Assembly: GCF_011405515.1 (NCBI RefSeq) | Contig: NZ_AP022671.1 | Span: forward strand, 3,968,001 to 4,032,000 | Reading direction: 5' to 3' | DNA from: Nitrospira sp. KM1 | GTDB lineage: Bacteria; Nitrospirota; Nitrospiria; Nitrospirales; Nitrospiraceae | Length of the DNA stretch: 64,000 bases | Shown here: positions 21,430 through 35,540 of the stretch, piece after piece | Position numbering within the stretch: position 1 is the first letter of the stretch | How the letters are laid out: the number at the start of each line of letters is the position of its first letter | Translations under genes and position numbers: made by a program | Notes under the pieces: model-generated | Seen by the model: only the letters and a program-made list of their open reading frames with translations | Told to the model about the DNA's origin: nothing | Databases searched by the model: none

Positions 21430-21717
21430 TTATACCCCCTTTGTTAGGTTTTTTATCTTTGTATTTAATGCTTGAGATATGGGCGTGAGTTCATCTGCAG
21501 TGGGGTGGCTAAGACCATTTAGAATGTCTTCAATCCGATCGAGACTAAGTTTCGCCCTGCGCGCAAAAACCTCCTTAGTCATCCCTTGATCTCTCATGAG
21601 CTTGGCGACGTTCGCTAAAAACGGATGGCGATTGCAGGCTATTACAAACGCTGCATGGTTAGCCGGCGAAACTTGTTTCTTGCCCCTCATTGCACTTTCC
21701 TTCCTCAGTGCGGGCAT
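21430..21717 (-). CDS. XRE-like helix-turn-helix regulator
   Basis: 95 residues, basic N-terminus, then VAKLMRDQGMTKEVFARRAK followed by LSLDRIEDILNGLSHPTADEL, a lambda-Cro/XRE type HTH with the usual helix 2-turn-helix 3 pattern. An alternative start is the internal Met10 (AMRGKK). It sits immediately upstream of int with a 2-bp gap and overlaps the small exported protein by 13 bases, so it is likely co-transcribed and could act as a repressor or excision control gene. No cleavable (LexA/S24-like) domain is present. Confidence 0.75.
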   Translation of the reverse strand: MPALRKESAMRGKKQVSPANHAAFVIACNRHPFLANVAKLMRDQGMTKEVFARRAKLSLDRIEDILNGLSHPTADELTPISQALNTKIKNLTKGV

Positions 21718-21971
21718 GGCCTCACATTCGAATCTCGCAATTGCTGCTCTAAATTGTTCAGGTGGTTGAAATAGTGCTGGCTGCTGTTGCCATCGCTATA
21801 GATCCATCCTGACTGCCCGGTGTTCGGGTTGTTGTAGAACGTCGGCCCGAGACTATTGCCTTCATACAGCCACGTCGCCCCGTGCTGGTTATCCAGAATC
21901 ATGTCGAGTGAATAGGTGTTCGAGGCCGTGGCGAGGAGCACGCCGAGAAGAAAACCAAGCAAGAGTTTCAT
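21705..21971 (-). CDS. Small exported protein (88 aa)
   Basis: 88 residues with a clear signal peptide or membrane anchor (MKLLLGFLLGVLLATASNTY). The mature part is polar and aromatic (GATWLYEGNSLGPTFYNNP, then GQSGWIYSDGNSSQHYF), reminiscent of small beta-rich periplasmic proteins annotated only as hypothetical. It is wedged between the Xis-like and XRE genes with short overlaps on both sides, so it is part of the regulatory/integration operon. Function unknown; a membrane or superinfection-related role is possible but unsupported. Confidence 0.65.
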   Translation of the reverse strand: MKLLLGFLLGVLLATASNTYSLDMILDNQHGATWLYEGNSLGPTFYNNPNTGQSGWIYSDGNSSQHYFNHLNNLEQQLRDSNVRPCPH

Positions 21972-22177
21972 GGGAGCCTCCGTTTGTTCATCTTCTTGAG
22001 GATCGATTGACGGCAGATACGAAAGAAATAGCGCGGGCCCAATCCATGAAGTTCTCCTGTTTCCAGATATCGATAGACCGTTGCCTTATTGACGCCGAGA
22101 ATCTCTGCTGCTTCACGCACAGTGAAAGAGGGTTCATCGGGAATGCCTGCCATCGGGGGGTTGGATGCTTCGGGCAT
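21968..22177 (-). CDS. Excisionase-type helix-turn-helix protein
   Basis: 69 residues. The core FTVREAAEILGVNKATVYRY matches the MerR/excisionase HTH_17 family, followed by LETGELHGLG and a conserved RICRQSILKKM ending. Such proteins bend att-site DNA and direct the integrase to excision, or act as small regulators. The position three genes upstream of int on the same strand fits an Xis. The stop overlaps the next ATG by 4 bases. Met9 (MAGIPDE) is an alternative start. Confidence 0.75.
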   Translation of the reverse strand: MPEASNPPMAGIPDEPSFTVREAAEILGVNKATVYRYLETGELHGLGPRYFFRICRQSILKKMNKRRLP

Positions 22178-22325: not shown

Positions 22326-22334
22326 GATGTCATC

Positions 22335-23789
22335 TCAGCCTGGAAAGTCCTGCCAGCAGTCCTCGTGCGACGTGGATGGTACGGGCGCAACCGCGACTGG
22401 GTCCGGGGTCGGCATGCGTGATACGTCAACGGATGAATGCACTGCGGAAGAGATAGGAGAGCCGAGTGCACGAGGAGGCGTCTTAAACGGCGGCTTCATC
22501 ACGGCCTGTCTCGGCTCTGCCACATTCAACAGTCTGGCTTCGTGTTGCCGATACATTGAGGCCGTCGAACTATCCATGGCCTGCACGTAAATACTCGTGG
22601 TTTTAAAGTTGGTGTGCCCGAGCCCCTTCTTCGAGACGGTCACGAGATCCTTTGAGGTGTCAACCGCCCAGGTCGAGCCGGTCCGACGCAGGTCATGACG
22701 GGTGATACGATCCACGCCAGCCCGTTTTCGGATGTCATGCCAGAGCTGCGTCCACCGCGAGACGCTGAGCGGCTTATTTCCACGGCCGGGGAAGAGAAAA
22801 GTGGAGGGCTTCGGTCTCGATCGGATGTAGGTGACGAGGAGACTTGCCAGGACGGGTGGCAGGTCGATCGGGTCAATCTTCTGCGTCTTGCTATCGACCT
22901 TGTGCCACATGCCGACCGTTTCTCCGTGCTCATCGGTCCAGAATTGCAGATGGCTCACCAACAGCTCCGCCGCTTCTCCTGGTCTCGGGAACAACGTCAG
23001 CATGAACATGAAGAAGCACCGTTCCCGAAGTGGCTGACGTTTGAGGATGTCCAGCAAGGTCGGCATTTCATGCTCACGAACAAATTCCTTCCGCTTGCCC
23101 GCCGTCCCAATGGGCACCTTCATCGCTCGGTTCTTCCCGTCGTAGCATTCCAGTTGCTCGGCCCAGTTATAGAGATGACGGAGTTTCTTCACCAGGAAGA
23201 TCGCCATGCTGGGAATGTTCGCACGAATCGGATTGATCCATTCGGTAATCTGCGCCACGGTCAAGGATTCCAGCGTGTACGGCTTCAGCGGGCCAAAATG
23301 TTTTTCCATATTCGTCATGATCCCGCGTCCACCGCCCTTGAGCGTGGAGATATGCAACCGATAGTACTGCTCCAATAATTCCCCAATGGTCATGCCAGGC
23401 CGGAGGGATGTCGAGGGTGCGGGGAGGGGGGCAACGGTGACGCGGGTCAGCGCGGTCGCGGTCCCCTCACGGTAGGCCGGGTTCAGACCATGATATCGCC
23501 CCCATTCCAGACACTTGTTGTAGAGCAAATGTAAGTGTTTGAGACAGGCACAGGCTTGTGACGAGGAATGCGCATTGATCTGATCGAACCACTGCTTGAT
23601 GAGTGGCCGCGTGAGGGTGTCGAGCGTATAGGGGTGTAAGGGCGGAAAGTACATGGCGATCCGGCTGCGCGTCGAGTGTGGATACTTCAACGTGGCGAGG
23701 TGTCGCCGGTCGAACTCGAGCAGAAGCTCGCCGATCGTCTGAGGACTAGGGGGCGTTCCAGTGGGAAACACGGTGAAGTTGGGAGCCAT
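22335..23789 (-). CDS. Second tyrosine recombinase with duplicated core-binding domain
   Basis: 484 residues. The catalytic domain is complete (FPRPGEAAELLVSHL with Arg, RHDLRRTGSTW, GLGHTN, and Tyr in TSIYVQ). The N-terminal part is odd: two consecutive core-binding modules, about 16-105 and 132-225, share the wording TIGELL, H(L/I)(A/S)TLK, PLxPYTL(D/E)(S/T)LT and a following LYN helix. Most integrases have one. The C-terminus adds 60 residues rich in Pro, Ser and Val. It may recognise two different DNA arms, resolve multimers of the replicating element or control cargo. It lies apart from att, so the other enzyme is the likely integrase. Confidence 0.9.
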   Translation of the reverse strand: MAPNFTVFPTGTPPSPQTIGELLLEFDRRHLATLKYPHSTRSRIAMYFPPLHPYTLDTLTRPLIKQWFDQINAHSSSQACACLKHLHLLYNKCLEWGRYHGLNPAYREGTATALTRVTVAPLPAPSTSLRPGMTIGELLEQYYRLHISTLKGGGRGIMTNMEKHFGPLKPYTLESLTVAQITEWINPIRANIPSMAIFLVKKLRHLYNWAEQLECYDGKNRAMKVPIGTAGKRKEFVREHEMPTLLDILKRQPLRERCFFMFMLTLFPRPGEAAELLVSHLQFWTDEHGETVGMWHKVDSKTQKIDPIDLPPVLASLLVTYIRSRPKPSTFLFPGRGNKPLSVSRWTQLWHDIRKRAGVDRITRHDLRRTGSTWAVDTSKDLVTVSKKGLGHTNFKTTSIYVQAMDSSTASMYRQHEARLLNVAEPRQAVMKPPFKTPPRALGSPISSAVHSSVDVSRMPTPDPVAVAPVPSTSHEDCWQDFPG

Positions 23790-23798
23790 ACGAACCTC

Positions 23799-24116
23799 CT
23801 AGTGCGTGGAGCGGCCATTCCTCAGATGGGGCTGAAGGGGAAAGTGTGGGCTGTACGAGCCTTGATCGATCCAGTTCACTACCCGTGCAAGATCCTCCGA
23901 GAGGGCGAGCAGTTCATTACGGAACGGGAGAGGGTGAGCGGCTCGGAATCGTTCGATCGCGTGCGCGAGCATATGGAGGGAGCCGAGCTCATAGGCAGGC
24001 ATCGTTCCCTCCCACGCGCACCATTGATTGACTTTCGCTTCTCGTCGCTGCTCGTCGTTCTCAAAACAATCCGGCCCGGTGGCATACGGCGGAATGCAAT
24101 CGTCCTCCATGGTCAC
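23799..24116 (-). CDS. Hypothetical protein (105 aa)
   Basis: 105 residues, acidic, starting MTMEDDCIPPYATGPDCFEN and containing LGSLHMLAHAIERFRAAHPL and LLALSEDLARVVNWIDQGSY. Mainly alpha-helical by composition; no signal peptide, membrane helix or known motif. Its ATG overlaps the stop of the next gene upstream by 4 bases, so the two are probably translated together. Function unknown. Confidence 0.6.
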   Translation of the reverse strand: MTMEDDCIPPYATGPDCFENDEQRREAKVNQWCAWEGTMPAYELGSLHMLAHAIERFRAAHPLPFRNELLALSEDLARVVNWIDQGSYSPHFPLQPHLRNGRSTH

Positions 24117-24373
24117 CGTCCTTTCTCAAGGAGTGGATCGCGACCGAAGGGAGCTTCATCGCGGTCGCACTTCGCAATGAGGGCTTGTAGCTCCTTTGGG
24201 TCCTCCATCTTGGCTAAGAAGATATCGAGCGCCTCTATGAGCAGATCCCAGATGGGAATGCCGGTGTGTTCTGAAAGCTCTTCATACTGCGCTTTCAACG
24301 CTGGATTCATGCGGTGCCACACACGCACGATTTTCTCCTCCAGAGTCAACCCAGCGTCAGGATCAAAGAGCAT
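24113..24373 (-). CDS. Hypothetical protein (86 aa)
   Basis: 86 residues, helical and acidic. LTLEEKIVRVWHRMNPALKA, then YEELSEHTGIPIWDLLIEAL. The second block could be a helix-turn-helix (SEHTGIPIWDLL), but the match is weak. It overlaps the 105-residue gene by 4 bases and starts 16 bp after the RHH gene stops, so the three form one minus-strand transcription unit reading toward the second recombinase. Function unknown. Confidence 0.6.
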   Translation of the reverse strand: MLFDPDAGLTLEEKIVRVWHRMNPALKAQYEELSEHTGIPIWDLLIEALDIFLAKMEDPKELQALIAKCDRDEAPFGRDPLLEKGR

Positions 24374-24389
24374 TGCCGCCTCCTTTTGG

Positions 24390-24530
24390 TTACGCCGCCT
24401 TCTTGCCTCTGAAATGCTGTTCGAGTAAGTGGCGAATGAATCCGCTTGCCGTATAGCCCTTCGTTTTCATCGCGTCGAGTTGTGTTTTGAGCTTCGGTGG
24501 GAGCTGGATATTAAGACGTTGCATTCTCAT
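24390..24530 (-). CDS. Ribbon-helix-helix (CopG-like) protein (46 aa)
   Basis: 46 residues: a beta strand QRLNIQLPPKL, then helix KTQLDAMKTKG, a turn, and YTASGFIRHLLEQHF. This is the Arc/MetJ/CopG ribbon-helix-helix layout. It begins 23 bp from a perfect 12-bp palindrome, the expected type of operator for such dimers, and is divergent from a second RHH gene. Probable autoregulator of the two diverging operons. It is too short for many gene finders. Confidence 0.75.
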   Translation of the reverse strand: MRMQRLNIQLPPKLKTQLDAMKTKGYTASGFIRHLLEQHFRGKKAA

Positions 24531-24552
24531 CTCGTCCTCCAGTGTTTAAACG

Positions 24553-24564
24553 TTAACATGTTAA
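24553..24564. promoter_or_regulatory. Palindromic operator between divergent RHH genes
   Basis: TTAACATGTTAA is a perfect 12-bp palindrome centred in the 95-bp divergent region, with a second palindrome GTTTAAAC at 24544-24551. RHH dimers bind such short inverted repeats. Binding is inferred from position and symmetry. Confidence 0.55.
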
Positions 24565-24589
24565 GTTGTGTGGTGTCAACCGATGGTCC

Positions 24590-24618
24590 TTGACACCAAT
24601 TCACCCTTTGGCTAGGTT
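24590..24618 (+). promoter_or_regulatory. Promoter of the plus-strand RHH gene
   Basis: TTGACA (24590-24595), 17-bp spacer, TAGGTT (24613-24618). Transcription would begin at about 24625-24626, exactly at the GTG start of the gene, which implies a leaderless mRNA. Confidence 0.6.
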
Positions 24619-24625
24619 CTCTCCC

Positions 24626-24799
24626 GTGACTGATAGCGAAGATTCGGAAAAGGTCCAAATAGGTCCACGAATTAAGAAGCATCTCATTGATGAGATTCGC
24701 ATTCTTGCCATTCGTCAGAACCGCCGCTTTACCGAGATGATCGAAGAAGGGCTCGCGGACTTGTTGAAGAAGTACAGGGACAAAGGGAAAGGTAAATGA
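24626..24799 (+). CDS. Ribbon-helix-helix-like regulator (57 aa), probably leaderless
   Basis: 57 residues from GTG 24626: VQIGPRIKKHLIDEIRILAI is the strand and first helix, and RRFTEMIEEGLADLLKKY the second helix of an Arc-like RHH fold, with a lysine-rich tail. Start choice: a longer frame exists, but the promoter's -10 box ends 7 bases before this GTG, so the longer forms could not be transcribed from it. The divergent position opposite another RHH gene suggests a two-regulator switch. The 91-residue gene starts 2 bp after its stop. Confidence 0.65.
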   Translation: MTDSEDSEKVQIGPRIKKHLIDEIRILAIRQNRRFTEMIEEGLADLLKKYRDKGKGK

Positions 24800-24800
24800 C

Positions 24801-25076
24801 ATGATCTCCAAGCCCAGCAATCCCCGCTTTACCATCCAGACCGGCTATCGCGGCACAGGCAAACCCCTCTATTCCTACATGGAGGGGTTTCGCGAGATCA
24901 TTACGCCGCGCCTGAATCCTGGGCTCGGCGTTACCCACTCCAACTGCATTAGCGAGACGTACCTGCATGCCCTCGCGTACTGTATGGATATGGCCGATGA
25001 ATATTACAGCCGGGGCTACGGCATCTCGGATATTAGGATCGAGCCATTCAAAGGGATGGTCGGCGAGTTGACCTGA
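24801..25076 (+). CDS. Hypothetical protein (91 aa) paired with an RHH regulator
   Basis: 91 residues: RFTIQTGYRGTGKPLYSYME, GFREIITPRLNPGLGVTHSN, then YLHALAYCMDMADEYYSRGY. No known domain. The placement directly behind a small RHH DNA-binding protein in a two-gene unit resembles toxin-antitoxin organisation (RHH antitoxin first), but no toxin motif is visible, so that remains a possibility only. It is the only plus-strand unit in the left half of the element. Confidence 0.6.
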   Translation: MISKPSNPRFTIQTGYRGTGKPLYSYMEGFREIITPRLNPGLGVTHSNCISETYLHALAYCMDMADEYYSRGYGISDIRIEPFKGMVGELT

Positions 25077-25113
25077 CCCCACTCGCGCCGACGCTACAGC
25101 GCGAATTCCTTCG

Positions 25114-25680
25114 CTATACCTCAAACGCCGTCTCCACCTTGAGCGGTTCCGCGTCCTGCTGGAACGGGGCTGCCGGAACCGTCGGCGCCGGTTGATGGCC
25201 GCTCGGCCAATTGCATTCTTCGAGAATCCGCTCGACGGAGCCGCGATTCATTGCGATCGTGCCCGCCATGCCGTCCCAACTCTGCAACGACGCCGAGATG
25301 GTATGGATGAGAGAGGCGCGGGCCTCGAGGTAGATCGATCGGCCGTCTTTCCACACGATCTGCTGGAACTTCAGACCCTCATAGGCCGCGATCCCTTCGC
25401 GCACCTGGCGAGGGCAGTTCTCGCATACGGTTGCGATCTCTTTGAGGTGGGGTTCCACCATGCGTGGCAATGGGACACGAGACTTTGACGCGAGCGTCAG
25501 GAGTTCGTGCATCCAGGCTTGCGTCCCTTTCACCAACTTGAGGATCTCGGGAAGTTTGCGTTGCGCCGTGTCGTACTTCCCCCGCATTTCGCTTTTCATC
25601 GCGTCCACGGCCTGGGCCTGTTCGTTCAGAATGCCTGCGTTGGCGTGCTCGATTCGTTCCGACATCGCTGTGAAATCCAT
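25114..25680 (-). CDS. Unknown element protein (188 aa) sharing a C-terminal peptide with the terminase
   Basis: 188 residues, largely alpha-helical. Helix-rich N-terminus (FTAMSERIEHANAGILNEQA), a pair of cysteines (VCENCPRQ), VWKDGRSIYLEARASLIHTI, a Pro-rich linker, and the end EPLKVETAFEV. The last residues PLKVETxFxV/F are shared with the large terminase subunit encoded 1.4 kb upstream, with different synonymous codons. It is the last gene of the packaging-side operon. A role with the terminase (adaptor, scaffold or capsid-docking) is inference; I find no known family. Confidence 0.7.
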   Translation of the reverse strand: MDFTAMSERIEHANAGILNEQAQAVDAMKSEMRGKYDTAQRKLPEILKLVKGTQAWMHELLTLASKSRVPLPRMVEPHLKEIATVCENCPRQVREGIAAYEGLKFQQIVWKDGRSIYLEARASLIHTISASLQSWDGMAGTIAMNRGSVERILEECNWPSGHQPAPTVPAAPFQQDAEPLKVETAFEV

Positions 25681-25702
25681 GAGGTGCCTCCTTTATAGGT
25701 GG

Positions 25703-26209
25703 TTACAGATTGATTCGACTCTTGATGATCCGCAGCACGCGCAACGCCACGCCATCGCCGAGGCGACGGGAGATGAGTCCATACAACTCAGGATCAGCGC
25801 TTGCGATGAGTTCGGCTAATGGCCGGACTTCTTCAATGCCCTGCTCCAAGGTAATGCCGTCATTGGCCCAGTGTTGTTTCGTGTCGTCCATCTCCATCCG
25901 CTCCTGTTCATCGAGCTGCGCTTGCTCGGATTGCGGATCGGTGGACGTGGGTACCGGGTCGCCGAGCTGCTCTGACGGAGGGGAGGAGGCAATCAGTCCG
26001 CCCCCGATCTCGATCATCCGGTTACCCGGATAGGCTTTTCGGTACAAGCTATCGACATAATCGAGGGCGGCTTTCTCGCCGCGTTGATACCCGGCATAGT
26101 GCTGATGGGTTTTATCCATCATCACCTTCGCGTGCTCTTCTCGGCATGCAATTGCGGCCGGTGTTTCGGCTGCCGCCTGGTCAAACTCCGATAACGATGA
26201 TTCGATCAT
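25703..26209 (-). CDS. Hypothetical acidic protein (168 aa)
   Basis: 168 residues from ATG 26209, strongly acidic and Gln-rich: SLSEFDQAAAETPAAIACRE, then ALDYVDSLYRKAYPGNRMIE and a central Asp/Glu/Pro/Ser-rich linker. The C-terminus (LISRRLGDGVALRVLRIIKS) is basic. No known domain; no membrane or signal segment. Highly charged helical proteins in this position after terL can be scaffold- or head-related, but nothing here proves it. A longer frame to 26347 overlaps the next gene and is unlikely. Confidence 0.6.
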   Translation of the reverse strand: MIESSLSEFDQAAAETPAAIACREEHAKVMMDKTHQHYAGYQRGEKAALDYVDSLYRKAYPGNRMIEIGGGLIASSPPSEQLGDPVPTSTDPQSEQAQLDEQERMEMDDTKQHWANDGITLEQGIEEVRPLAELIASADPELYGLISRRLGDGVALRVLRIIKSRINL

Positions 26210-26220
26210 GGGGTCTCCTC

Positions 26221-26412
26221 CTAGGTCGTGGCGTTGTCTGTCGTTTCGACCCATGCGCCTTCGCCTGGCGCGGATGGGCTCATGAACCGTTGAAACCGCG
26301 CCACGATGTGCCCGGTGACATTGCGGGCCACATGGGCATTGACCCATGTCCCTGCCGCGACCATCTGCCGGCAGCGGCTTTCGGCTTCCGTCGTGGTTGA
26401 AAAGGCTGCCAT
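26221..26412 (-). CDS. Small hypothetical protein (63 aa)
   Basis: 63 residues: MAAFSTTTEAESRCRQMVAA, GTWVNAHVARNVTGHIVARF, ending VETTDNATT. Mixed composition, no recognised domain. It fits tightly between its neighbours on the same strand, with a ribosome-binding-like GGAGA a few bases before the ATG, which supports a real gene. Confidence 0.55.
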   Translation of the reverse strand: MAAFSTTTEAESRCRQMVAAGTWVNAHVARNVTGHIVARFQRFMSPSAPGEGAWVETTDNATT

Positions 26413-26442
26413 GACCGTCTCCTTTCTCTTTCCAACGTGCGT

Positions 26443-26832
26443 TTACAGTTCCAATGCCGCGAACTTATCCCGGAGCGCGCGCAACCGGGCCTCTTCCTTG
26501 TCGGCCGCTTCTTTTGCCGTCTCGGCGCGTGCCTCATCGGCTTCAATCTGCAGCCGGAGTGTGTCGAGCCGGCCTTCGAGCTCGGCCCGCTGCCGGGCTT
26601 CCTCGCTTGCCAGCCGTTCGCCGACGTTGAAGGACACGCGAGACAGCTCGGCGTTCTTGAGTTCTACCGCCCGATCGACGGCAACCGCCGCTTGCTCTCG
26701 AATCGTGACCAGTTCCTCTCGCCGTTCAACGTCCCTCACCCGTTGGGGATGATCCTTGAGGTAGGGAAAGAGCCCGAAGAACGTGTTTTGCAAATTGGTG
26801 ATGTCTTGTTCCGCTTGGCCGCTCGTCGTCAT
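26443..26832 (-). CDS. Coiled-coil protein (129 aa)
   Basis: 129 residues. After a short N-terminus (EQDITNLQNTFFGLFPYLKD) the rest is a continuous heptad-like helix rich in Glu, Arg and Ala (VRDVERREELVTIREQAAVA through RLDTLRLQIEADEARAETAK). The long coiled coil, small size and place after the terminase genes would suit a scaffold-like or tape-like protein or a structural adaptor, but this is inference. It overlaps the next upstream gene by 4 bases (coupled). Confidence 0.65.
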   Translation of the reverse strand: MTTSGQAEQDITNLQNTFFGLFPYLKDHPQRVRDVERREELVTIREQAAVAVDRAVELKNAELSRVSFNVGERLASEEARQRAELEGRLDTLRLQIEADEARAETAKEAADKEEARLRALRDKFAALEL

Positions 26833-27038
26833 GGTTGCGTCTCCTTGGTGGGTGAATGTTCGGCCGCATGCTCGTCCGCTCGCCAGGCTGCGGCCTGAAG
26901 TATTAGAAACCTGGCGAGCGATTCCAACTCGTCGACTGTCACCTGTGCAAAGACTCCAATGATTTGGCTTTGCGCCGTCAGGGTGCCCGTCTTACTGCAG
27001 ACTGTGATTTCGAGTCCATTGCCGACATTCATGTGCAC
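26829..27038 (-). CDS. Small hypothetical protein (69 aa)
   Basis: 69 residues beginning MHMNVGNGLEITVCSKTGTL and continuing TAQSQIIGVFAQVTVDELES; two or three strands then a helix (LARFLILQAAAWRADEH). No recognised family. It starts 6 bp after the terminase stop and overlaps the coiled-coil gene by 4 bases, so it is in the same operon. Function unknown. Confidence 0.6.
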   Translation of the reverse strand: MHMNVGNGLEITVCSKTGTLTAQSQIIGVFAQVTVDELESLARFLILQAAAWRADEHAAEHSPTKETQP

Positions 27039-27044
27039 CTCCGG

Positions 27045-28664
27045 TTAGAACGTGAAATGCGTTTCGACCTTCAGCGGACCAGTCGGGATGGTCATGAGAT
27101 CATCACCATGCAGCCAGCTCAGCAGATACGCGGCTGCATCAGACACATCTGCCCATGGACTGTTTGGCTTTTTTGGCCCAGTGCGATCGACTTGACCGTT
27201 AGGCAGGACTGGATAGAACCAGCGGCCAGAAAAGGCTTCGACCAGTAAGCGCGTATCATCGCCGGGCGCGATCAACAACGGAGTCCGCCCCTGTTCATGC
27301 CGGGCGCCCAAGCCTCGTAGGATGGCTTCGCGCCGTGGGGCCCATCGGACTGGCCCGTGTACGATCCGCCCGCCCAGCTTTTCACGGATCACCTTTTCAG
27401 CCGTCTCGGTAATCGTGGCCTGTCCGGGCGTGGCCATGTTCGGGTCGATGATATGCACGAGCTGCGCGCCGTAGTGGGTGAGTGCCCAGGGGGCATGCGC
27501 CTGCAGCCAGGGCAACACCTGACGCTCGATCAGTTCCAGCACCCCGACTTTCATATCATTCAATGACGCGTAGATCCTGGCTTGTCCGCTGAGGTTCTGG
27601 CCCATGACTGCGCTTGGACTGTGTCCTCCGTCCCAGCCGATCGCAAACAACAGCATGGGAGAGGGGACGAGTGGATACGGTGAGACATGCACGTCCGGGT
27701 TAAACCCCTCGGCGACCGCCGCCCCTTGTTCCGCCATGACCCATTCACCTTTGGCCAAGCGCTTCTGGAGGGTCGGACTATTCGCAAAGGTCTGCTCCAG
27801 CGCCTGCCGCTCTTCCTGAGTTAGGCGATCATCCACCGAGATTTGAATCGGAAGGGATTTTGTTGACCCGTGAAAGAATCGTCTGTGTGGCCAGGTGTCG
27901 GGACTTCCGGGATTGGTCGCGAGCATGGATACGCGCCGGCGAGTGGGCAAACGGAGTGTCGAGGATCGAGCCAGATCGTATTGCTGTTCTGTAATGCCAA
28001 GTCCGTCCGTCAGGGAGGCGATCGGTTCCTCCCCTATGACCGTGTTAGCACTCATCCGGAGCCGTTCGGCTGAGCTTTGATCCTGGCAGCCTACGAAATC
28101 ACCGACGACCATCTGTTTGCCGCCGACGGAGAACACGGCTAGCTTTCGGTCATCCTTCAGACTCCACGTGTTCCCCCACATGGGAAGCTCGAGGGATCGC
28201 GCTGTTTTCGCCGAGGCGGATAGTAGGGTGTCATGCAACCACAACACTCGATACGGTCCCGGATAGCCAGCCCGCAGATCCAGTTCCGCATTGATCACGG
28301 CTGCCGCGGCGAGGGCGTGCGTTTTTCCTGTCCCGCGCGGGCCATGAACCAGAATTTCCTCTGCCGAGCCGTCAACCGCTTCAGCAATCGCCCGGCTGGC
28401 CGATGGGGCGAAGGCAATCGGGTGTACCAGATCGGGACAGCCGCCCACCGCGAGATAGTCGAGGACCAGCTTTGAAACTTCTTCCGCCTCCGGTCCGGAT
28501 CCCAAGAGGTGACGTCCGATGAGGACGATTGTCCGCCCTTCAATGTCTGTCCCGTCGGCCCAGCTTGGGGTGATATCCAGGCGTAGCAGGATGGCCGCGA
28601 GTGGCGTGCCCAAGCCGGCAAACTTCTCAAGCAGGAACTTATTGATCTTGTCCTCACTGGCCAC
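27045..28664 (-). CDS. Terminase large subunit-like protein
   Basis: 539 residues. The ATPase half has Walker A GPRGTGKT (108-115), Walker B VIGEE (209-213) and the coupling motif LATNPGS (248-254). The second half resembles the RNase-H-like nuclease of phage terminases: Asp345 in GWDGGHSPSAV, Asp407 in HIIDPNMA, and Asp506/Asp509 in SPWADVSDAA. The terminase motor packages DNA into a procapsid and cuts it. Size and motif spacing fit TerL. The C-terminal peptide GPLKVETHFTF is shared with the 188-residue protein. The upstream gene overlaps it by 11 bases and is the likely small subunit. No portal gene follows, which is unusual. Confidence 0.8.
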   Translation of the reverse strand: MASEDKINKFLLEKFAGLGTPLAAILLRLDITPSWADGTDIEGRTIVLIGRHLLGSGPEAEEVSKLVLDYLAVGGCPDLVHPIAFAPSASRAIAEAVDGSAEEILVHGPRGTGKTHALAAAAVINAELDLRAGYPGPYRVLWLHDTLLSASAKTARSLELPMWGNTWSLKDDRKLAVFSVGGKQMVVGDFVGCQDQSSAERLRMSANTVIGEEPIASLTDGLGITEQQYDLARSSTLRLPTRRRVSMLATNPGSPDTWPHRRFFHGSTKSLPIQISVDDRLTQEERQALEQTFANSPTLQKRLAKGEWVMAEQGAAVAEGFNPDVHVSPYPLVPSPMLLFAIGWDGGHSPSAVMGQNLSGQARIYASLNDMKVGVLELIERQVLPWLQAHAPWALTHYGAQLVHIIDPNMATPGQATITETAEKVIREKLGGRIVHGPVRWAPRREAILRGLGARHEQGRTPLLIAPGDDTRLLVEAFSGRWFYPVLPNGQVDRTGPKKPNSPWADVSDAAAYLLSWLHGDDLMTIPTGPLKVETHFTF

Positions 28665-29124
28665 GGGTCCCTCCGGGTTTCATGTCGACCACTTCCGCCA
28701 GTGGCCGGATGTTGCGATTGTTGCGGAGCTGCTCCAGGATCTGGACTGCTTTGCCGCCATGCTCCAGGCGTAAAAGCGTGTTATTCAGTTCCCGAGTCGC
28801 CGACGCCTGCCGAAGCCCGACCGCCACGTTGCAGCATTGCCGGACTTCCGCCAGCCGCTTCAGGTTCGCATTGCGGATTTTGGCCGCCGACTCGCTGATG
28901 CCCTGCAGGGTCTTGGCAATGCCTTCCTCCGTCGTGAGATCGCCGATCTGCAGATCCGGAATCGTCGTTGCCTCCTGGCTGGCTATGGCGCCTTTCAGCT
29001 GAAACCGCCGGGCCACCGAGGGGTCTGACCCGTGATGGGGGCACTCCGCCCCCTCACCAAGCCGATACGCACAAGGGGAACCGTCTTTTCGAGGCTGTCC
29101 GCAGAGTCTCAAGGGCACCTCCAT
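28654..29124 (-). CDS. Terminase small subunit-like protein
   Basis: About 156 residues from ATG 29124. An N-terminal zinc-ribbon-like patch (RLCGQPRKDGSPCAYRLGEG, then ECPHHG) is followed by helices (GIAKTLQGISESAAKIRNAN, LRLEHGGKAVQILEQL). Immediately upstream of TerL with an 11-base overlap, it occupies the standard small-subunit position. The Cys4-like patch (C, C, C, H, H) could bind zinc and recognise the packaging site. Sequence identity to known TerS families is not evident, so the call rests largely on position. A longer start at 29265 is possible. Confidence 0.55.
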   Translation of the reverse strand: MEVPLRLCGQPRKDGSPCAYRLGEGAECPHHGSDPSVARRFQLKGAIASQEATTIPDLQIGDLTTEEGIAKTLQGISESAAKIRNANLKRLAEVRQCCNVAVGLRQASATRELNNTLLRLEHGGKAVQILEQLRNNRNIRPLAEVVDMKPGGTRGQ

Positions 29125-29242
29125 CGCCAAACCATGAGCCTTGTTGATGTGTGGGGATCTGAAAAAATGCAGAGGAATACCCACGCGGGCTGCCGCTGGG
29201 GAGCAAAAAGCCTCTGCCGGGGGGTGGTTTTTTCCAACCGGC

Positions 29243-29656
29243 TCATGCTTTCTCCTTCCATGCATCGATCAGCCGATCCAGGTCTGACCGGTCGAACAAG
29301 AGCTTCCGCACTTCGCCAGCATTGGGGCCTGGAATGCGTAACCGGGGCAATGTGCCCGCCGCTTCCAGCTCTCTAACCGTCCATTCTGAAAGGCCGAGAT
29401 AGGCAGCGGTGCTGTGGAGGTCGAGGACGCGAGGACCGATAGGAACGACGGTTAGTGTAACCAGCGCTCTCTTAGGATCTCCGCTGCTAGACGCTGTTTC
29501 CATCGTCGCTGTGCCCGCAGTGTGCCCAGAACGGAAGATGCCCGGATCGCCAGATTTCGGCCGGCCGGGCTTCCCGCGGCGTGAACCAGGCACGGGCAAG
29601 GCTTCTTGAACCATTGGTGAGGAATTTCCCGCGTCCTGGTGAATGCCCTTTCTCAT
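29243..29656 (-). CDS. Helix-turn-helix (HTH_17/MerR-type) DNA-binding protein
   Basis: About 137 residues. The N-terminal 70 are low-complexity (Gly, Pro, Ser, Lys). The C-terminal domain is a winged HTH of the excisionase/MerR type: DLHSTAAYLGLSEWTVRELE, AAGTLPRLRIPG, then VRKLLFDRSDLDRLIDAWKE. It starts about 25 bp from the iteron array and lies between the terminase and replication modules, so it may act on the origin or as a regulator of the packaging operon. Confidence 0.7.
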   Translation of the reverse strand: MRKGIHQDAGNSSPMVQEALPVPGSRRGKPGRPKSGDPGIFRSGHTAGTATMETASSSGDPKRALVTLTVVPIGPRVLDLHSTAAYLGLSEWTVRELEAAGTLPRLRIPGPNAGEVRKLLFDRSDLDRLIDAWKEKA

Positions 29657-29680
29657 CACTTCTTTCTCTTCTCCCGCCAG

Positions 29681-29855
29681 AAATAGGACGGCAAATAGGA
29701 TAGCCCTCCTCTTATAGAGGAGGGGGCATCCGTCCTATTTGGGTTTCCTATTTGAATAGGATGACTATTTCTTAATGTTTCCATGACTTAGATATCCTGG
29801 CCTATTTGTCCTATTTAGCCGTGTCAAAAGGGCGTCCTATTTCAGTTTCCTATTT
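29681..29855. repeat. Iteron array, candidate replication origin
   Basis: The 8-mer TCCTATTT, or its complement AAATAGGA, occurs at 29681, 29693, 29733, 29746, 29809, 29835 and 29848, with one-mismatch copies at 29754, 29763 and 29800. Pairs are spaced 9 or 13 bp apart. A 9-bp hairpin CCCTCCTCT/AGAGGAGGG (29704-29724) and an AT-rich patch (about 29763-29795) lie within. Iterons beside a Rep helicase gene are the classic layout of a plasmid-type or satellite origin. The last two copies lie in the end of the helicase gene. Confidence 0.75.
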
Positions 29856-31161
29856 CATTTCTGGCGTTCAGCACGGTCCATTTCGTCGTCATACCGGGCC
29901 CGCCGATCATCTGCCACTTATGGCCTTTGTGCTTTCTGAGGGTCCGCTGAATGGTCGATAAGGCAACGTCCAACTCATAGGCGATGTCCTGAGGGGTGCG
30001 CATGATCCCGTCCTCAAGGAGGTTTCGAATACGAGAGGCGACCGGGAGTGCGTTCGCTAATTCGGCCGTCTCGCGGAGGTCGCAGGCTTCGAAGCGGATG
30101 ACCGAGCACGCCTCGTCCTGCGTCATGGTGAGCCCAATTGGATGATGACGCCGGGTATGGTTCGACTTGCGATGAAAGAGGCCGATGACGGCGGTATCTG
30201 CGCCGAGTTCCTGTTCACGCTTGAATTCCCACGTACTGCGCGCCCGGTTCTTGTTGAACACGCTGCCGTACACGCTCTGGGCCTCCTGGCCTTCCGCGAG
30301 GGTCTTCGGCACATGACCAAGTAAGAGGGTTTCGGTTTTGAGCAGCCGCACGGCATCGAAGAATTTCGAGACGGTCTCGGAGGAGGCATCCCCGCCACTG
30401 GCGGCCATCAATGAATCGATGACCACGAACGTGATGCCATCGGCCTGGATCCGCCTCACCAGCGGATAGATCATCCGGACGAGCGGTTCCTCGCAGGGCA
30501 GATAATCAATCTCCGCATCCGATAGTTCGGGATGGCCGGCAATGAGGGCCTGCAGGCGCCTCGCGTGCACTTCCTCGTCATCTTCCCAATCGAGAAAGAG
30601 CGAACGGCCTTGTAGCGCCCGGATGCCCGCGATGGTTTGCCCGGTTGAGACCATGGCGGCGAGAAGAAGAGCAAACGAGCTTTTGCCCTGGCCGCCGTCC
30701 CCGTAGATGATCACGGGCTTGCGTCTGACGATCAGGGGATTAACGGAGTAGGTGAACGGCTCAACTTGCGTGAAGCGGGTCAGTTTGACGGCCGGTCGAC
30801 CGGTGCGCTTGCTCTGCAGAACCATGGCGCAGGCATTCTGCAGCAGGTCTTTCCATGGTACGGACGGGATGGACTCGGTGAGGGCCTTGGCGATTTGCTT
30901 CTGCGTCCCTTCAGAGGTGAGGCCGATCGCCTTGCAGGGCATGACGGGCTCGCCGAGGAGGAACACTGAGAGTTCTGCCTTCTCAGATCCATACTTCTCA
31001 GACAGCCGATCGAACGTGAAGCGCGCGCCCCATTTGAACGAGGACACGTTATAGAGACCAGCCGCTTCAGAGAGGGTCAAGTCTGGCCGCTCATGGCCGT
31101 TCACCTGTGAGGAGACTAAGGGTTGTCGGGCAAGGGCTTCGGCTTCCTCGATCACCTTCAT
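29842..31161 (-). CDS. RepA-type replicative helicase/AAA ATPase
   Basis: 439 residues. Walker A GDGGQGKSS (154-162), a LFLDWEDDEEVHARR motif, Walker B TFVVIDSLMAA (Asp249), and a GHVPKT sensor-like loop; this is the AAA_25/RepA hexameric helicase pattern. The C-terminus (about 380-435) has an HTH-like segment (MRTPQDIAYELDVALSTIQR). It opens the origin and loads replication. It overlaps the primase-like gene by 4 bases and its own end abuts the iteron array, so helicase, primase and origin form a compact replication module. Confidence 0.8.
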   Translation of the reverse strand: MKVIEEAEALARQPLVSSQVNGHERPDLTLSEAAGLYNVSSFKWGARFTFDRLSEKYGSEKAELSVFLLGEPVMPCKAIGLTSEGTQKQIAKALTESIPSVPWKDLLQNACAMVLQSKRTGRPAVKLTRFTQVEPFTYSVNPLIVRRKPVIIYGDGGQGKSSFALLLAAMVSTGQTIAGIRALQGRSLFLDWEDDEEVHARRLQALIAGHPELSDAEIDYLPCEEPLVRMIYPLVRRIQADGITFVVIDSLMAASGGDASSETVSKFFDAVRLLKTETLLLGHVPKTLAEGQEAQSVYGSVFNKNRARSTWEFKREQELGADTAVIGLFHRKSNHTRRHHPIGLTMTQDEACSVIRFEACDLRETAELANALPVASRIRNLLEDGIMRTPQDIAYELDVALSTIQRTLRKHKGHKWQMIGGPGMTTKWTVLNARNEIGN

Positions 31162-31640
31162 GCGCGGCCTCGCAGTTCATCGGCCAGTTGCTCATGGAGG
31201 TGTGCCAGGTCGAGGTCTTCATAGGCCGAGGCCGCGGTACTCAACAACCGGTCAAGGTCGTCGTCTGAGACCGGGGCAAGATCGAGGTCGGAAAGCCTGT
31301 TGAGCACGGCGCCCGCACGAGTGCGGCGATCAAACGCGCTGAGTTCAAATTGAAAGGCCAGAGCCGCATGATTGACCCTCGGCACGGGTCTGATAGGTCG
31401 GATGTCTCGGGGAAGTCCCGCATCATAGAAAAGGTCCGCCAGGCGTAGGCCCAGGCTGCCGCAGACTTCCGCCGTGGTACAGCCGGCCCAGCATTTCACC
31501 AGGAGGCCAGAATCGCCTGGACTCACCTGTAAACTCGGGGAGCGATCGGCGTGAGCAGGGCAGAGCGCCACATGGCGAGATCCACGAAGGATGACCCCTT
31601 CGAGCCGTCCTAGGAAGGCTTCGAGTGTCATTCGCAACAC
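31158..31640 (-). CDS. Primase-like zinc-finger protein (CHC2 type)
   Basis: 160 residues. HVALCPAHADRSPSLQVSPG, then LLVKCWAGCTTAEVCGSLGL gives a CxxH...CxxC zinc-binding module as in DnaG-type primases and phage primase/helicase N-termini. No TOPRIM catalytic core is present, so it is not a full primase; it may be the DNA-recognition subunit for the RepA-type helicase or for host primase. The C-terminal half is acidic and helical. The ATG at 31631 or 31640 could start it. Overlap with the helicase gene (4 bases) supports a functional pair. Confidence 0.75.
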   Translation of the reverse strand: MLRMTLEAFLGRLEGVILRGSRHVALCPAHADRSPSLQVSPGDSGLLVKCWAGCTTAEVCGSLGLRLADLFYDAGLPRDIRPIRPVPRVNHAALAFQFELSAFDRRTRAGAVLNRLSDLDLAPVSDDDLDRLLSTAASAYEDLDLAHLHEQLADELRGRA

Positions 31641-31837
31641 TCCGCGAGTCGTGCAAAATCAATGTGTGCCATGCGCAAGTGCTGCACGATGCTGACGTCG
31701 ACATCATCGCCGGCTGCCTTCCGTTTCTGCAGGGTCGCATATTCATGTTCGATCAAGCTGATGATCGGCCTTACATTCGCGGTGAATCGTTCCGAAAGGG
31801 GATTGCAGTGTTGGGAGGGACTCGGTATTCTATTCAT
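31628..31837 (-). CDS. Small hypothetical protein (69 aa)
   Basis: 69 residues: FTANVRPIISLIEHEYATLQ, then VDVSIVQHLRMAHIDFARLA. Helical, no known motif. It overlaps the start of the primase-like gene by 13 bases and so heads the replication operon. Function unknown. Confidence 0.5.
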   Translation of the reverse strand: MNRIPSPSQHCNPLSERFTANVRPIISLIEHEYATLQKRKAAGDDVDVSIVQHLRMAHIDFARLAECCE

Positions 31838-31905
31838 CGCTGTCTCCTTCGTGTCTTTGCCGCTGCGCCTGCATCCCGTCGAAAGGGCAGGCCAGCGGCT
31901 TTTAA

Positions 31906-32124
31906 CTACACTCCTATCACCGCTTCTAGTCCCTTCGATCCGTCGAGTTCCTTTTTCAGTTTCATGACGTCCTCCTCTTTGAACAGTCTGGTCCCATCCG
32001 CCGTTCTCTGTGCAGGAAGGCGGCCGATTCGTTCGTAATATCTGACGGTCGGTCCAGCCCTTTCCAAGAGCCGTGCGGCATCATTGGTCATCAGCAACCG
32101 GTCGCTCATAAATGCCTCCTCCAA
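31906..32124 (-). CDS. MerR-like helix-turn-helix regulator
   Basis: 72 residues, or 67 from Met6. LMTNDAARLLERAGPTVRYY, ERIGRLPAQRTADGTRLF and KEEDVMKLKKEL form a winged HTH of the MerR superfamily without a ligand domain. It is divergent from the zinc-ribbon gene at 32259 across a 134-bp region containing a plausible promoter (TTGTAA 32169, TAATAT 32191). Candidate master regulator for the replication operon. Confidence 0.75.
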   Translation of the reverse strand: MEEAFMSDRLLMTNDAARLLERAGPTVRYYERIGRLPAQRTADGTRLFKEEDVMKLKKELDGSKGLEAVIGV

Positions 32125-32258: not shown

Positions 32259-32957
32259 ATGGAAGAAACTTTCTACTTCGATATTTTGAAAAGGATCGGC
32301 AGTACCTCAAGAGACCAACTTGCGTGGTTGATAGGAGTACTTGAGGGTCCAGTACTTCAGACCCCGGAAGATTGGGTAAGCTTGCGTCGAGGTCTCCTCG
32401 TCTTTGCCATGCATGCAGCCGGCGCACCATCGTACGGCCTTACTGCTTCCGATATTGACTTCAAGCCGCTGACGATTCCGATCGTGACAAGTAGTAAAAC
32501 TATGAGGGAAGCTCTCAAGAAGGCTCAGTGGGGTGTCATGTGGGCTGTACTGGATATGCTAGAAAGAGTAGCGAGCCGCCAGACGTTTGTATCTCCGCAG
32601 CAAGAAACGCGAGTTCAGTGGAGTGAAGGGAAGCGACGATATGTTTCTGTCATTGATCCCGCGAGAGACAGCTTTCGTAAAGCGATTATTCGGGGTCTAA
32701 CAAAATGTGTTTTCGACAATGGCCGGCTAGTAAAGGAATGCCAGGCACCGGGCAAAGTCAAAACAGGAAGAAAGCGAAAAGGGGAATCAGAGCCTATGCC
32801 CTCAGTTTGTGGAAAGTTGTTCGTTGGTAGAAAGGAAAATCAGCTATATTGTTCAGGAGCCTGCCTTAGCCGGACGTTGACGAGAAAAAAACGAGCTAGC
32901 AAAAAGACGCGAGGTCGGAAAATAGGAGGAAGAAAACAGGCCAGGCCCATAATTTAA
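32259..32957 (+). CDS. Zinc-ribbon protein of unknown function (CGNR-like end)
   Basis: 232 residues. The N-terminal 150 are helical with no known family (FDILKRIGSTSRDQLAWLIG). The C-terminus has MPSVCGKLFVGRKENQLYCS followed by GACLSRTLTRKKR, a C...CxxxC treble-clef like that of CGNR zinc fingers, then a very basic tail (RGRKIGGRKQAR). Likely DNA- or RNA-binding. It is one of the few plus-strand genes of the element and lower in GC than the packaging genes, like the two genes that follow, so this right-hand cargo may have a separate origin. Confidence 0.6.
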   Translation: MEETFYFDILKRIGSTSRDQLAWLIGVLEGPVLQTPEDWVSLRRGLLVFAMHAAGAPSYGLTASDIDFKPLTIPIVTSSKTMREALKKAQWGVMWAVLDMLERVASRQTFVSPQQETRVQWSEGKRRYVSVIDPARDSFRKAIIRGLTKCVFDNGRLVKECQAPGKVKTGRKRKGESEPMPSVCGKLFVGRKENQLYCSGACLSRTLTRKKRASKKTRGRKIGGRKQARPII

Positions 32958-33042: not shown

Positions 33043-33783
33043 CTATGAATCTTTGCCCCACAGTCGTTCAGAAACATCTCCTTCGAGTTTCTTGATCAAA
33101 GCTCCCCCCTGCTCGTCAAATAGCTTTTGTTTATCACGCGCCTCTGGTTTGATATCGTATGTTTTGTTAGACCTACTCTCACTAACTGCGAACCAGATCA
33201 AATCAGACAGACTCGAGAACTGCGTTCGTATATCCTTTGGCAGAAAAATTCCATTTTTGAGTATAAAAATATGAGCATCCCTGATTTTCTTTACCGCGTC
33301 ATCAAGCCTAAACCAGAATATATGCTGCACATAAAATGTATTACGTTCCTGCCCTGCTTTTTCCTTCAAGTCATCCTTCATCCATGGATCCAGACGACAT
33401 GATTCTACAAATTCGACAAAATGCTGGGGAGACATTCGAGCGAGATCTGGATACGTTTGGAATGGCGAGAGAAATGCCACGGCTTCCCAATATGCATCAC
33501 TAAGCTTTGACCAAGCTTCCGGCAGTACCTCAAATTCGCGTTGATGAAGCTTTGTAGTTCTGTCTAAAAGGGCGTTGATCTTAAACCGGAGATGTTCTAT
33601 TTCCTTATGCTGTTCGTGCCTCGCTATTTCTAGCTGCGATTCAAATTTGTTTTCGATCCATTTTTCTCCGAATCGTTTGAATAGTATATATGCACCGGCC
33701 ACGCTTGCGCCGACGATGATTCCAAGTAGTCCTAGCAGATTTCCAAGATGGGCTAACCATGTCATAAATGTTTCGAAGGTCAT
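33043..33783 (-). CDS. Membrane-anchored coiled-coil protein, partner of OLD nuclease
   Basis: 246 residues. One N-terminal membrane helix (about 12-35, LGLLGIIVGASVAGAYILF) is followed by a helical charged segment (IENKFESQLEIARHEQHKEI, about 40-80) and a cytoplasmic domain with no known family. The OLD gene lies upstream and overlaps it by 4 bases (ATGA), so the two are made together. Paired membrane proteins in defence operons often act as effectors that damage the membrane, but that is inference. Base composition is AT-rich compared with the rest of the element. Confidence 0.65.
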   Translation of the reverse strand: MTFETFMTWLAHLGNLLGLLGIIVGASVAGAYILFKRFGEKWIENKFESQLEIARHEQHKEIEHLRFKINALLDRTTKLHQREFEVLPEAWSKLSDAYWEAVAFLSPFQTYPDLARMSPQHFVEFVESCRLDPWMKDDLKEKAGQERNTFYVQHIFWFRLDDAVKKIRDAHIFILKNGIFLPKDIRTQFSSLSDLIWFAVSESRSNKTYDIKPEARDKQKLFDEQGGALIKKLEGDVSERLWGKDS

Positions 33784-35540
33784 GTTTTGTCGTTCAGCTC
33801 TGTTTGCAGTACGTTAGCTACAGAAAGATCGTTCGCAGCACAGATAAACTTTACGAGCGATTGTATTTTCTCTTCGAGGTCCAGCATCAATAGATCAGCC
33901 GATTTCTGCGCAATGGCATGAGCTACTTTTACTTTGTCATAGTGTTCGCAAAGTCGATGAGAGTATTTATTCCTCCCGCGTAGTATCGCCTTAGACCCAT
34001 ATAACCCCTTAACAGCATCCTCTAAGGTCGTAGCTTTAATGTAGTTCTCTATCTCTCTGCCGGCTGTTATCCAGGAAAACCCGGGCCCACTATCAAATTC
34101 TGCCTGCACACGACGTTTTGTAGCATTTATGGCGGCCTTGGAATTCTTCTTATCACTATCAATGACGATTGATAGCCAACGATTTAACCTTCGTAGAGAA
34201 ATAAAATCCTCTATCTCTTTGTCGTCAGCAGAGAGATGACTTAATAAGCGACCTCCGTAAAACATTATTGAGTAATGCAATCCTTCAAGCAGTGTTGGTG
34301 CGATCGAGTTAATCCAGTGTTGTAGATAGATGCGATCGGAGGGACCTTCCACCCAGATAACAGAGTTTGCCTGCATCAGATCTGATGCGCGATGTCCTAA
34401 ATCCCCACAGATCATCGACTTACTGCAATCGGTCTCAGCGAGTTCACCTTTGGAAAATCCATTTTCTTGTCGTATATGGAATATCGAAGCATTGGGAGCA
34501 TCGAGAAAATGCGGCGAGTGTGTAGTTATAAAATATTGGTTGGACGTGTTTTCAAGCAAGTATCTAATTAGGAGCTTTTGCAATGATGGATGCAGGTGTA
34601 ATTCTGGTTCTTCTATGCATACAATCTGGTTTTGAAGAATAGTGGCTGCTGCTGCCAGAATAATAACTTCGTGGATGCCGGTCCCTAAAGAGATCAGTGG
34701 CAAAGTTTTCCCATTCATCTCGACGAGAATCGTATCTCTTTCATAAGGGATCGTGATTCTTGCTTGATCATTTTTTGTCACTGTACGGAAGAAGCGTACG
34801 ATCTCATCAAACAACGCGCGCTTGTTCTGATGCATTAGGCCAGGACTTTCAAGCCGAGCAAGCCTGTCGATTATCCCATGACCACTAAAATTATTAGCTT
34901 GTTCAGTGTTGGCCTCGCCAATACTTCGAATGGCAGATATCAATTCAATGGGGGGATGTGGATTCTGTATCGGGCTCAATTCGTGGAGAACTTGCGGAAT
35001 GCATATCGTCCGAATGTCGCCAGGAGTTCCTCCGCTGTGAAATAAAGACCAGAGAGCGGCCCATTCATGGTGATTAACATCAGTAGCGGCGCGAGCAGCC
35101 TCAATCAGTTGAGGGGATATTTGCGGTGTATAACTGCTCTCCGCATACCAGAACCACGCAGTTTTTTGATCGCGGCAAAGGCAACTCGATCGGAGAATCT
35201 TATCGATCAATACCGCCGCTCGTTCAGGCTGAACAGGACGACTTCTTTTGATGATCTTTTCGGGGGTATCTGCACCGAGTGTGATAGCAAACCCAACACG
35301 TAGGGGACCTTTCCCATTTGCGGGAAAATCTAGAACGGGGTCCCTCTGAAACCTAAGGCTATGATTGCTCTGTAAATGTTTTGCGCTCTCCTTATAGAAC
35401 CTTGTTAAGAAGGTGAGGATGTTGGACTTGCCTGCGTTGTTCTGGCCAATGAAGACATTTAACTTTCTGAGTGGAGAGAACTGCTGCGGCGCTTCTTCAA
35501 AACTTTTGTAATTGCAGAAGCCGAATCCGTCAATAAACAT
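33780..35540 (-). CDS. OLD-family ATP-dependent endonuclease
   Basis: 586 residues. ABC/SMC-type ATPase: Walker A IGQNNAGKSN (31-40), signature-like ISLGTGIHEV (283-292), Walker B IVCIEEPELHLHP (306-318), and H-loop TTHSPHF (339-345). C-terminal TOPRIM nuclease: VEGPSD (397-402), DSD (461-463) and GREIENY (494-500). All catalytic residues are present. OLD proteins include P2 Old and GajA and mostly act in phage defence. Class 2 OLD genes sit beside a UvrD-type helicase; here the partner is a membrane protein instead. It is the first gene inside the right att site, a usual cargo position. Confidence 0.9.
   Translation of the reverse strand: MFIDGFGFCNYKSFEEAPQQFSPLRKLNVFIGQNNAGKSNILTFLTRFYKESAKHLQSNHSLRFQRDPVLDFPANGKGPLRVGFAITLGADTPEKIIKRSRPVQPERAAVLIDKILRSSCLCRDQKTAWFWYAESSYTPQISPQLIEAARAATDVNHHEWAALWSLFHSGGTPGDIRTICIPQVLHELSPIQNPHPPIELISAIRSIGEANTEQANNFSGHGIIDRLARLESPGLMHQNKRALFDEIVRFFRTVTKNDQARITIPYERDTILVEMNGKTLPLISLGTGIHEVIILAAAATILQNQIVCIEEPELHLHPSLQKLLIRYLLENTSNQYFITTHSPHFLDAPNASIFHIRQENGFSKGELAETDCSKSMICGDLGHRASDLMQANSVIWVEGPSDRIYLQHWINSIAPTLLEGLHYSIMFYGGRLLSHLSADDKEIEDFISLRRLNRWLSIVIDSDKKNSKAAINATKRRVQAEFDSGPGFSWITAGREIENYIKATTLEDAVKGLYGSKAILRGRNKYSHRLCEHYDKVKVAHAIAQKSADLLMLDLEEKIQSLVKFICAANDLSVANVLQTELNDKT

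Follow-up and report, generated by a model that had tools for sequence, protein, structure and literature searches.

Background

To our knowledge, phage satellites that resize the capsids of their helpers mostly borrow the helper's large terminase (TerL), and those with a TerL of their own normally bring capsid genes as well. P4-like satellites are recognised by the genes psu, delta, sid and alpha, and P4 itself measures about 11.6 kb. Phage-inducible chromosomal islands (PICIs) measure approximately 12-15 kb, display an integrase, a replication module and a master regulator in a conserved order, have orthologous gene sets and occupy att sites that prophages never use (PMC6092414). In SaPI1, a PICI of the Staphylococcus aureus pathogenicity islands (SaPIs), a C-terminal motif is common to protein CpmB and the 80alpha scaffold, which compete for a single site on the capsid protein, and small shells result (PMC5644958). 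Capsid-forming PICIs (cf-PICIs) encode capsid, protease, portal and connectors in addition to TerS and TerL (PMC10690885). AH14b, a 16.8-kb satellite from Pseudomonas, has no structural gene set, and its description identifies no terminase genes (PMC4936722). Here we describe a 15.4-kb integrated element at positions 20276-35713 of a 64,000-nt stretch of Nitrospira sp. KM1 (NZ_AP022671.1, 3,968,001 to 4,032,000; hereafter the window). With a probability of about 0.7, we read it as a phage satellite that would take its coats, portal and tails from podoviruses resembling HTVC010P, because it is framed by attachment (att) repeats, its gene set recurs over 14.8-15.6 kb in other genomes, its terL is under selection, related full phages exist and capsid genes are absent.

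The element resembles SaPI1 by its size of about 15 kb, its integrase at one end, its regulators and replication module and the lack of portal and major capsid genes (PMC5644958, PMC6092414). Like pac-type SaPIs it has its own TerS (PMC6092414), and, as in SaPI1, one of its small proteins matches the scaffold of the helper type at what would be the end that binds capsid protein (PMC5644958). In contrast to SaPI1, it also has TerL, its scaffold module is N-terminal and joined to a new domain, and host phylum and helper type differ; the two are likened by layout rather than by a direct comparison of protein homology with SaPIs. TerS and TerL are shared with cf-PICIs, whereas the capsid genes of the latter are missing here (PMC10690885). 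The lack of a structural gene set is common to AH14b, from which the terminase genes set the element apart (PMC4936722). An integrase, a replication module and a candidate master regulator occur in the order conserved among PICIs, and 15.4 kb agrees with the PICI size range (PMC6092414). We consider that the element works like a PICI without filing it as one, the comparison being restricted to size and organisation. None of psu, delta, sid and alpha turned up in general Pfam and PHROGs scans, no search aimed at them having been made.

Element limits, packaging genes and virion genes

The original prediction, made from the DNA letters alone, had placed the element at 24113-32124. The unit proved larger, since perfect 44-bp direct repeats (44/44 identity) frame positions 20276-35713 (Table 1). 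The left copy overlaps tRNA-Arg(CCT), located at 20241-20317. Six other genomes of the genus were compared, and five showed this repeat again (42-44 nt, 98-100% identity) near the chromosomal gene that flanks the right side of the element: at ~115-120 nt from it in G002, G003 and G006, ~640 nt in G004 and ~1 kb in G001. G005 displayed a single short match to the repeat only. An intact tRNA-Arg(CCT) occupied the corresponding site in G006, G003 and G001, in a comparison that is one-sided since the left flank cannot be aligned past the tRNA. The reading frame of Int1 stops within the 5' half of the tRNA (20241-20319), so that the rebuilt tRNA-Arg would be transcribed from within the element.

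TerL was recognised both by its PHROGs match and by ~60% identity to phage TerLs, and TerS by homology to the gene preceding phage terL, as the original prediction had proposed for the pair. The ATP-loop residues G108, G113, K114 and T115 of TerL and its acidic residues D345, D407, D506 and D509 were invariant (alignment A1). TerS had no hidden Markov model match in the Pfam and PHROGs scans, and its true start is probably internal to the frame in Table 1. The ratio of nonsynonymous to synonymous substitution rates of terL was 0.12 between the elements of Nitrospira sp. RSF3 and RSF11 (see below), the one pair far from saturation, most other satellite pairs being near or beyond it; by this estimate terL is under purifying selection.

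Pfam and PHROGs scans of 20 window proteins revealed no portal, capsid or lysis family, and the sole tail-type match of the small proteins of the element was that of a coiled coil to tape measure (E 0.011). Likewise, tblastn of eight proteins from the virion module of related phages (see below) against five elements gave no match under E 0.05 for the major capsid protein (MCP), portal, tail, decoration or 94-aa protein, the closest being the portal at E 0.051. The phage-type MCP was found in none of 175 genomes of the family, the window's own included, in a search that had no positive control. The claim of a locus free of structural genes thereby held for portal, major capsid and tail. It did not hold for two genes derived from a virion module, namely the scaffold-derived orf25.7 and orf26.2. 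The locus is a mobile element that lacks a complete set of virion genes, as expected for a satellite, and has none of the portal, MCP and tail genes of a full temperate phage.

The scaffold-tail module of orf25.7

Counted from 26209, where it probably starts, protein orf25.7 is 168 aa long. Its residues 18-67 were aligned by hhalign with the last ~49 residues of a phage assembly protein at a probability of 98.9 and E 1.5e-17. When that assembly protein was compared with the five elements by tblastn, its C-terminal part alone was significant, and this in all five (E 5e-11, 3e-10, 2e-9, 5e-9 and 2.5e-5). In the AlphaFold2 model, residues 17-59 form a helical module predicted with confidence, residues 64-89 are disordered, and further helices follow from 92 (mean predicted local distance difference test score, pLDDT, 74; predicted template modelling score 0.38). 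The layout is that of a scaffold module at the N-terminus, connected by the disordered linker to a helical domain that is new. Fold searches with the models of orf25.7 and orf25.1 returned no match at E <= 0.001.

The neighbouring orf26.2 is 46% identical to a 63-aa phage protein, and 57% over 51 aa to that of phage contig L010. Homology of orf26.4 to a phage coiled coil is not claimed, the alignment being too weak. In two satellites, the small protein encoded after terL is fused to a DnaJ J-domain (L014 18284-18664 and L017 11681-12076; E 6.8e-20 in RSF11), which perhaps recruits host Hsp70 to assembly.

Distribution of related elements

Elements of the same type were found through TerL in Nitrospira sp. 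RSF3 (G044, L018), RSF11 (L017) and palsa_1310 (L016), and through a DNA search in genome G120. The core HTH29.2-TerS-TerL-orf25.7-orf25.1 was present in all five elements, each from a different Nitrospiraceae genome. This synteny in four further genomes argues for a recurrent satellite family rather than a single decayed prophage. Among 175 genomes of the family, a profile of orf25.1 matched six, namely that of the window, four with coordinates agreeing with known elements, and G059. The last holds a decayed remnant (L164) with a 38-residue piece of orf25.1. At E <= 1e-20, TerL occurred in four of 395 genomes of the phylum, all from the family of the window, in an evenly drawn sample where RSF11 was not among the matches listed and which may not include it. 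All host-genome loci with an element-type TerL were satellites. A GTDB scan produced 27 pattern matches, three of which were true relatives.

Spacing between att repeats was 15394 nt in the window, 14764 in RSF3, 15573 in RSF11 and 15328 in G120, the last including a transposase-like gene; the palsa_1310 element is cut by the end of its contig. Targets were tRNA-Arg, tRNA-Met (twice) and tRNA-Thr. In all four cases, i.e. in RSF3, RSF11 and G120 as well, the repeat corresponded to the 5' half of the tRNA, with the integrase adjoining. Int1 was present in every element whose integrase end is covered (four; the palsa_1310 contig stops before it), with 54-66% identity between the window and the three others. 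In G120, a second tyrosine-recombinase element (L154/L155, joined coordinates 21955-28462) lies in tandem on the same tRNA-Thr and displays a 45-bp repeat that corresponds to the 3' half of this tRNA.

Replication genes and cargo differed among elements: proteins of the D5_N/DUF5906 and Schlafen/AlbA types were found in palsa_1310, and a DUF3631 protein together with a second OLD-like one in RSF11. In the window, TCCTATTT was found on either strand in nine copies over 64 kb, eight of them in the element and seven packed in 175 nt between repA and HTH29.2. This iteron-like array is probably the origin, in agreement with the original prediction. RSF3 displayed another repeated motif, ATCGTTGC/GTTGCAAC, at the equivalent site, as expected of origin repeats that track their Rep protein. 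No comparable array was found in the stretches examined from palsa_1310, RSF11 and G120.

In L063 (1702-2016) and L064 (7390-7689), a homologue of HTH29.2 immediately precedes a terS-terL-like pair of another type (types assigned by eye), which suggests a portable packaging-associated helix-turn-helix (HTH) protein. Both loci were rejected as further satellites of the window type, the terminases there being unrelated, and L065 and L066 showed a weak HTH match only.

Phage relatives and candidate helper

Ten IMG/VR contigs (L003-L012) encoded TerLs 56-63% identical to that of the window, and L013 a 31% partial match. A broader TerL scan reached 47 loci, those added displaying 23-33% over parts of the protein. 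As far as the ten contigs are covered, their gene order was TerS, TerL, small protein, portal, 94-aa protein, assembly protein, MCP, decoration-like protein, 63-aa protein and tail. The portal matched PF12236 (E 6e-93) and the MCP PF19821 (E 1.3e-38), the same families, in the order TerL-portal-assembly protein-MCP, as in HTVC010P-like podoviruses. Among 50,697 phage records, an MCP search retrieved 30, and Pelagibacter phages, including HTVC010P, accounted for 23 of these. Podoviruses of this type hold the closest TerL, a related TerS, a relative of the scaffold module and a homologue of orf26.2. These are full phages with portal, capsid and tail genes; all that the satellite retains of such a set is its packaging genes, part of a scaffold and the 63-aa protein.

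The phage assembly (scaffold) gene sits between portal and MCP; in contig L006 it occupies 5045-5908, and MCP 6266-7201. The homologous protein of Pelagibacter phage EXVC032P bears the annotation capsid assembly protein. Homologues were recorded at 76 loci. Among the 37 that were read, 34 also matched the portal and 25 the MCP, and L127 and L142 matched neither. Most phage homologues ended in a related C-terminus; the most divergent C-termini resembled the module loosely or not at all.

Contig L010 (42,171 nt) has ends overlapping over 250 nt at 99.6%, which gives a genome of ~41.9 kb, and the length of the element relative to it is 15.4/41.9 = 0.37. This is similar to the ratio between P4, at the length mentioned above, and P2, whose T=7 shell is described as enclosing a 33-kb genome (PMC6893505). 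No integrase was found in L010 (best Int1 match E 0.84; none in the eight L010 proteins scanned), which, with the MCP missing from the 175 family genomes, makes a lytic helper plausible. Short matches to helper-type phages (26-44 bp, one of 55) occurred in several genomes.

Proposed cycle and alternative explanations

Upon helper infection, the element would be excised by Int1 and the excisionase-like protein, and RepA and the primase would replicate it, starting in the iteron region. The borrowed scaffold tail of orf25.7 would bind the helper MCP, compete with the helper scaffold and favour a small shell, so that orf25.7, by its anatomy, would act as CpmB does. The element's TerS and TerL would then engage the portal of the helper and fill the shell with the 15-kb genome, helper tail parts would finish the particle, and the OLD-type cargo would guard the host from other phages. 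Packaging, resizing, helper identity, excision and replication are all steps that we infer from sequence.

Several observations weigh against this scheme. Beyond its module, orf25.7 fitted no known fold in the searches, and the module is N-terminal there, as opposed to C-terminal in the phage scaffold and CpmB. That the phage gene encodes a scaffold is deduced from its location and a single annotation; PHROGs labels its family unknown, and its alignment matched no solved structure in a PDB sequence search. A link between phages and Nitrospira through clustered regularly interspaced short palindromic repeats was rejected, as three of the short-match loci (L073, L074, L075) displayed no repeat array. 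Nor was any helper-type prophage found in the 175 family genomes, as judged by MCP, again without a positive control. Finally, a single-clade origin of the five satellite TerLs relative to nine phage TerLs was rejected (approximately unbiased test, p 0.0009). The window and G120 stood apart from palsa_1310, RSF3 and RSF11, which grouped with phage L010 in a tree whose long branches limit its reading. RSF3 and RSF11 themselves share 93% identity in TerL and 56% in integrase. As the satellite TerLs are not monophyletic, packaging genes seem to have been exchanged between satellites and phages, or acquired more than once; such mosaicism is expected of elements living alongside such phages.

The alternative that survives best, although we hold it unlikely, is a satellite without resizing, whose concatemers would fill full-size helper heads by headful through its own terminase while orf25.7 interferes with assembly or otherwise joins it. 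TerS and TerL would be enough for selective packaging, and AH14b, at 16.8 kb, is apparently packed as trimers in helper-size capsids (PMC4936722). Yet a scaffold-tail module in all five elements is hard to explain without capsid binding, and three copies of 15.4 kb exceed the ~41.9 kb of the helper-type genome, whereas 2.7 copies by headful would fit. An integrative defence island, remaining unpackaged and using TerS, TerL and orf25.7 to sabotage podovirus assembly, is improbable: the OLD-type cargo would suit it and pieces of the helper assembly protein could serve as decoys, but the replication module and excisionase would be superfluous and TerL has retained its catalytic residues. Chance survival of packaging genes in a decayed prophage is scarcely credible. 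The TerS-TerL order and the virion-module pieces do recall a deleted phage, and G059 shows that decayed remnants exist; however, independent genomes share the compact core with intact frames and a narrow size range while their att sites differ, and terL is under purifying selection. A phage-plasmid devoid of structural genes is a weaker reading than the satellite, the element being integrated at a tRNA between att repeats.

The satellite that borrows its particles, already put forward in the original prediction, is the reading that we retain, supported by the att repeats, the recurrent gene set, the related phages and the lack of capsid genes. None of the small proteins was identified as portal or capsid, and the core was not found within a full prophage.

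Other genes of the locus

The remaining genes are listed in Table 1. The primase-like zinc finger, RepA-like ATPase, excisionase, HTH regulators and integrase named beforehand were all recovered by family matches, the integrase as two tyrosine recombinases. The OLD-type nuclease gene overlaps that of a 246-aa partner of no known family, and G+C content in this region (33043-35540) was ~43%, versus 58% in the surroundings. Outside the element, tandem paralogous stretches spaced by ~965 nt occurred at 12582-14378. One 276-nt block there is 99% identical, which suggests recent local gene conversion, neighbouring blocks displaying 77-88%.

Table 1. Features of the Nitrospira sp. KM1 element, in window positions
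Feature	Position	Strand	Evidence and remarks
att repeat, 44 bp	20276..20319	no strand	over 5' half of tRNA-Arg(CCT); pairs with 35670-35713
Int1, tyrosine recombinase	20279..21427	-	PF00589 E 3.3e-15; 3' end enters tRNA
Cro/CI-type HTH regulator	21430..21717	-	HTH_3 E 1.7e-6
Excisionase-like HTH	21968..22177	-	HTH_17 E 3e-10; phrog_2907 excisionase E 1.4e-6
Int2, second tyrosine recombinase	22335..23789	-	PF00589 E 1.6e-19
Ribbon-helix-helix-like protein	24113..24373	-	RHH_3 E 4.5e-4, under cut-off
orf25.1, core satellite protein, all-helical	25114..25680	-	homologues in 5/5 elements; AlphaFold2 pLDDT 82, no fold match
orf25.7, scaffold-tail protein	25703..26209	-	hhalign E 1.5e-17; in 5/5 elements; AlphaFold2 model
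orf26.2, 63 aa	26221..26412	-	homologue of phage protein encoded after MCP and decoration-like gene; in 2/5 elements
Coiled-coil protein (orf26.4)	26443..26832	-	similar-sized coiled coils at equivalent site in RSF3 and RSF11; weak alignment
Small protein	26829..27038	-	homologue fused to J-domain in RSF3 and RSF11
TerL, large terminase	27045..28664	-	phrog_2 E 1.5e-5; ~60% identity to phage TerLs over full length, 56-62% in alignment A1
TerS	28654..29265	-	tblastn E ~1e-18 to gene upstream of phage terL; 60% to G120 element
HTH29.2, conserved HTH protein directly upstream of terS	29243..29659	-	53-72% identity in 4 other elements
Iteron-like array, probable origin	29681..29855	both orientations	7 x TCCTATTT; direct and inverted repeats
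RepA-like AAA ATPase/helicase	29842..31161	-	AAA_25 E 5.8e-18
CHC2-type primase zinc finger	31158..31640	-	phrog_6088 E 9.2e-12; PF01807 E 2.3e-4
MerR-like regulator	31906..32124	-	MerR_1 E 8e-6
Divergent zinc-finger-like protein	32259..32957	+	no Pfam family; label by eye from sequence
Partner of OLD-like gene	33043..33783	-	no family; N-terminal hydrophobic stretch
OLD-family ATPase-TOPRIM nuclease, defence cargo	33780..35540	-	AAA_15 E 2.2e-27; AriA 6.2e-28; GajA 7.2e-23
att repeat, distal copy	35670..35713	no strand	relatives: adjacent flank adjoins intact tRNA-Arg

Implications

In the accessible parts of the open-access literature searched, no described satellite family combined TerS and TerL with a scaffold-tail mimic and no capsid, and no phage satellite was encountered in Nitrospira or nitrifiers. 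The fuller picture is a new nitrifier satellite family that has converged on the CpmB trick, grafting the capsid-binding scaffold tail of a lytic podovirus onto a protein of its own to obtain small shells, and that relies on a complete packaging motor of its own, exchanged repeatedly with phages of the helper type, rather than on the helper TerL; to this we give roughly even odds. If true, the family would be intermediate between satellites that resize capsids with a borrowed TerL and those that bring both TerL and capsid, and would represent a further independent case of capsid-size piracy through a copied capsid-binding end of a scaffold. The satellite reading also predicts a concrete helper lineage, and nitrifiers would gain a route for moving defence genes.

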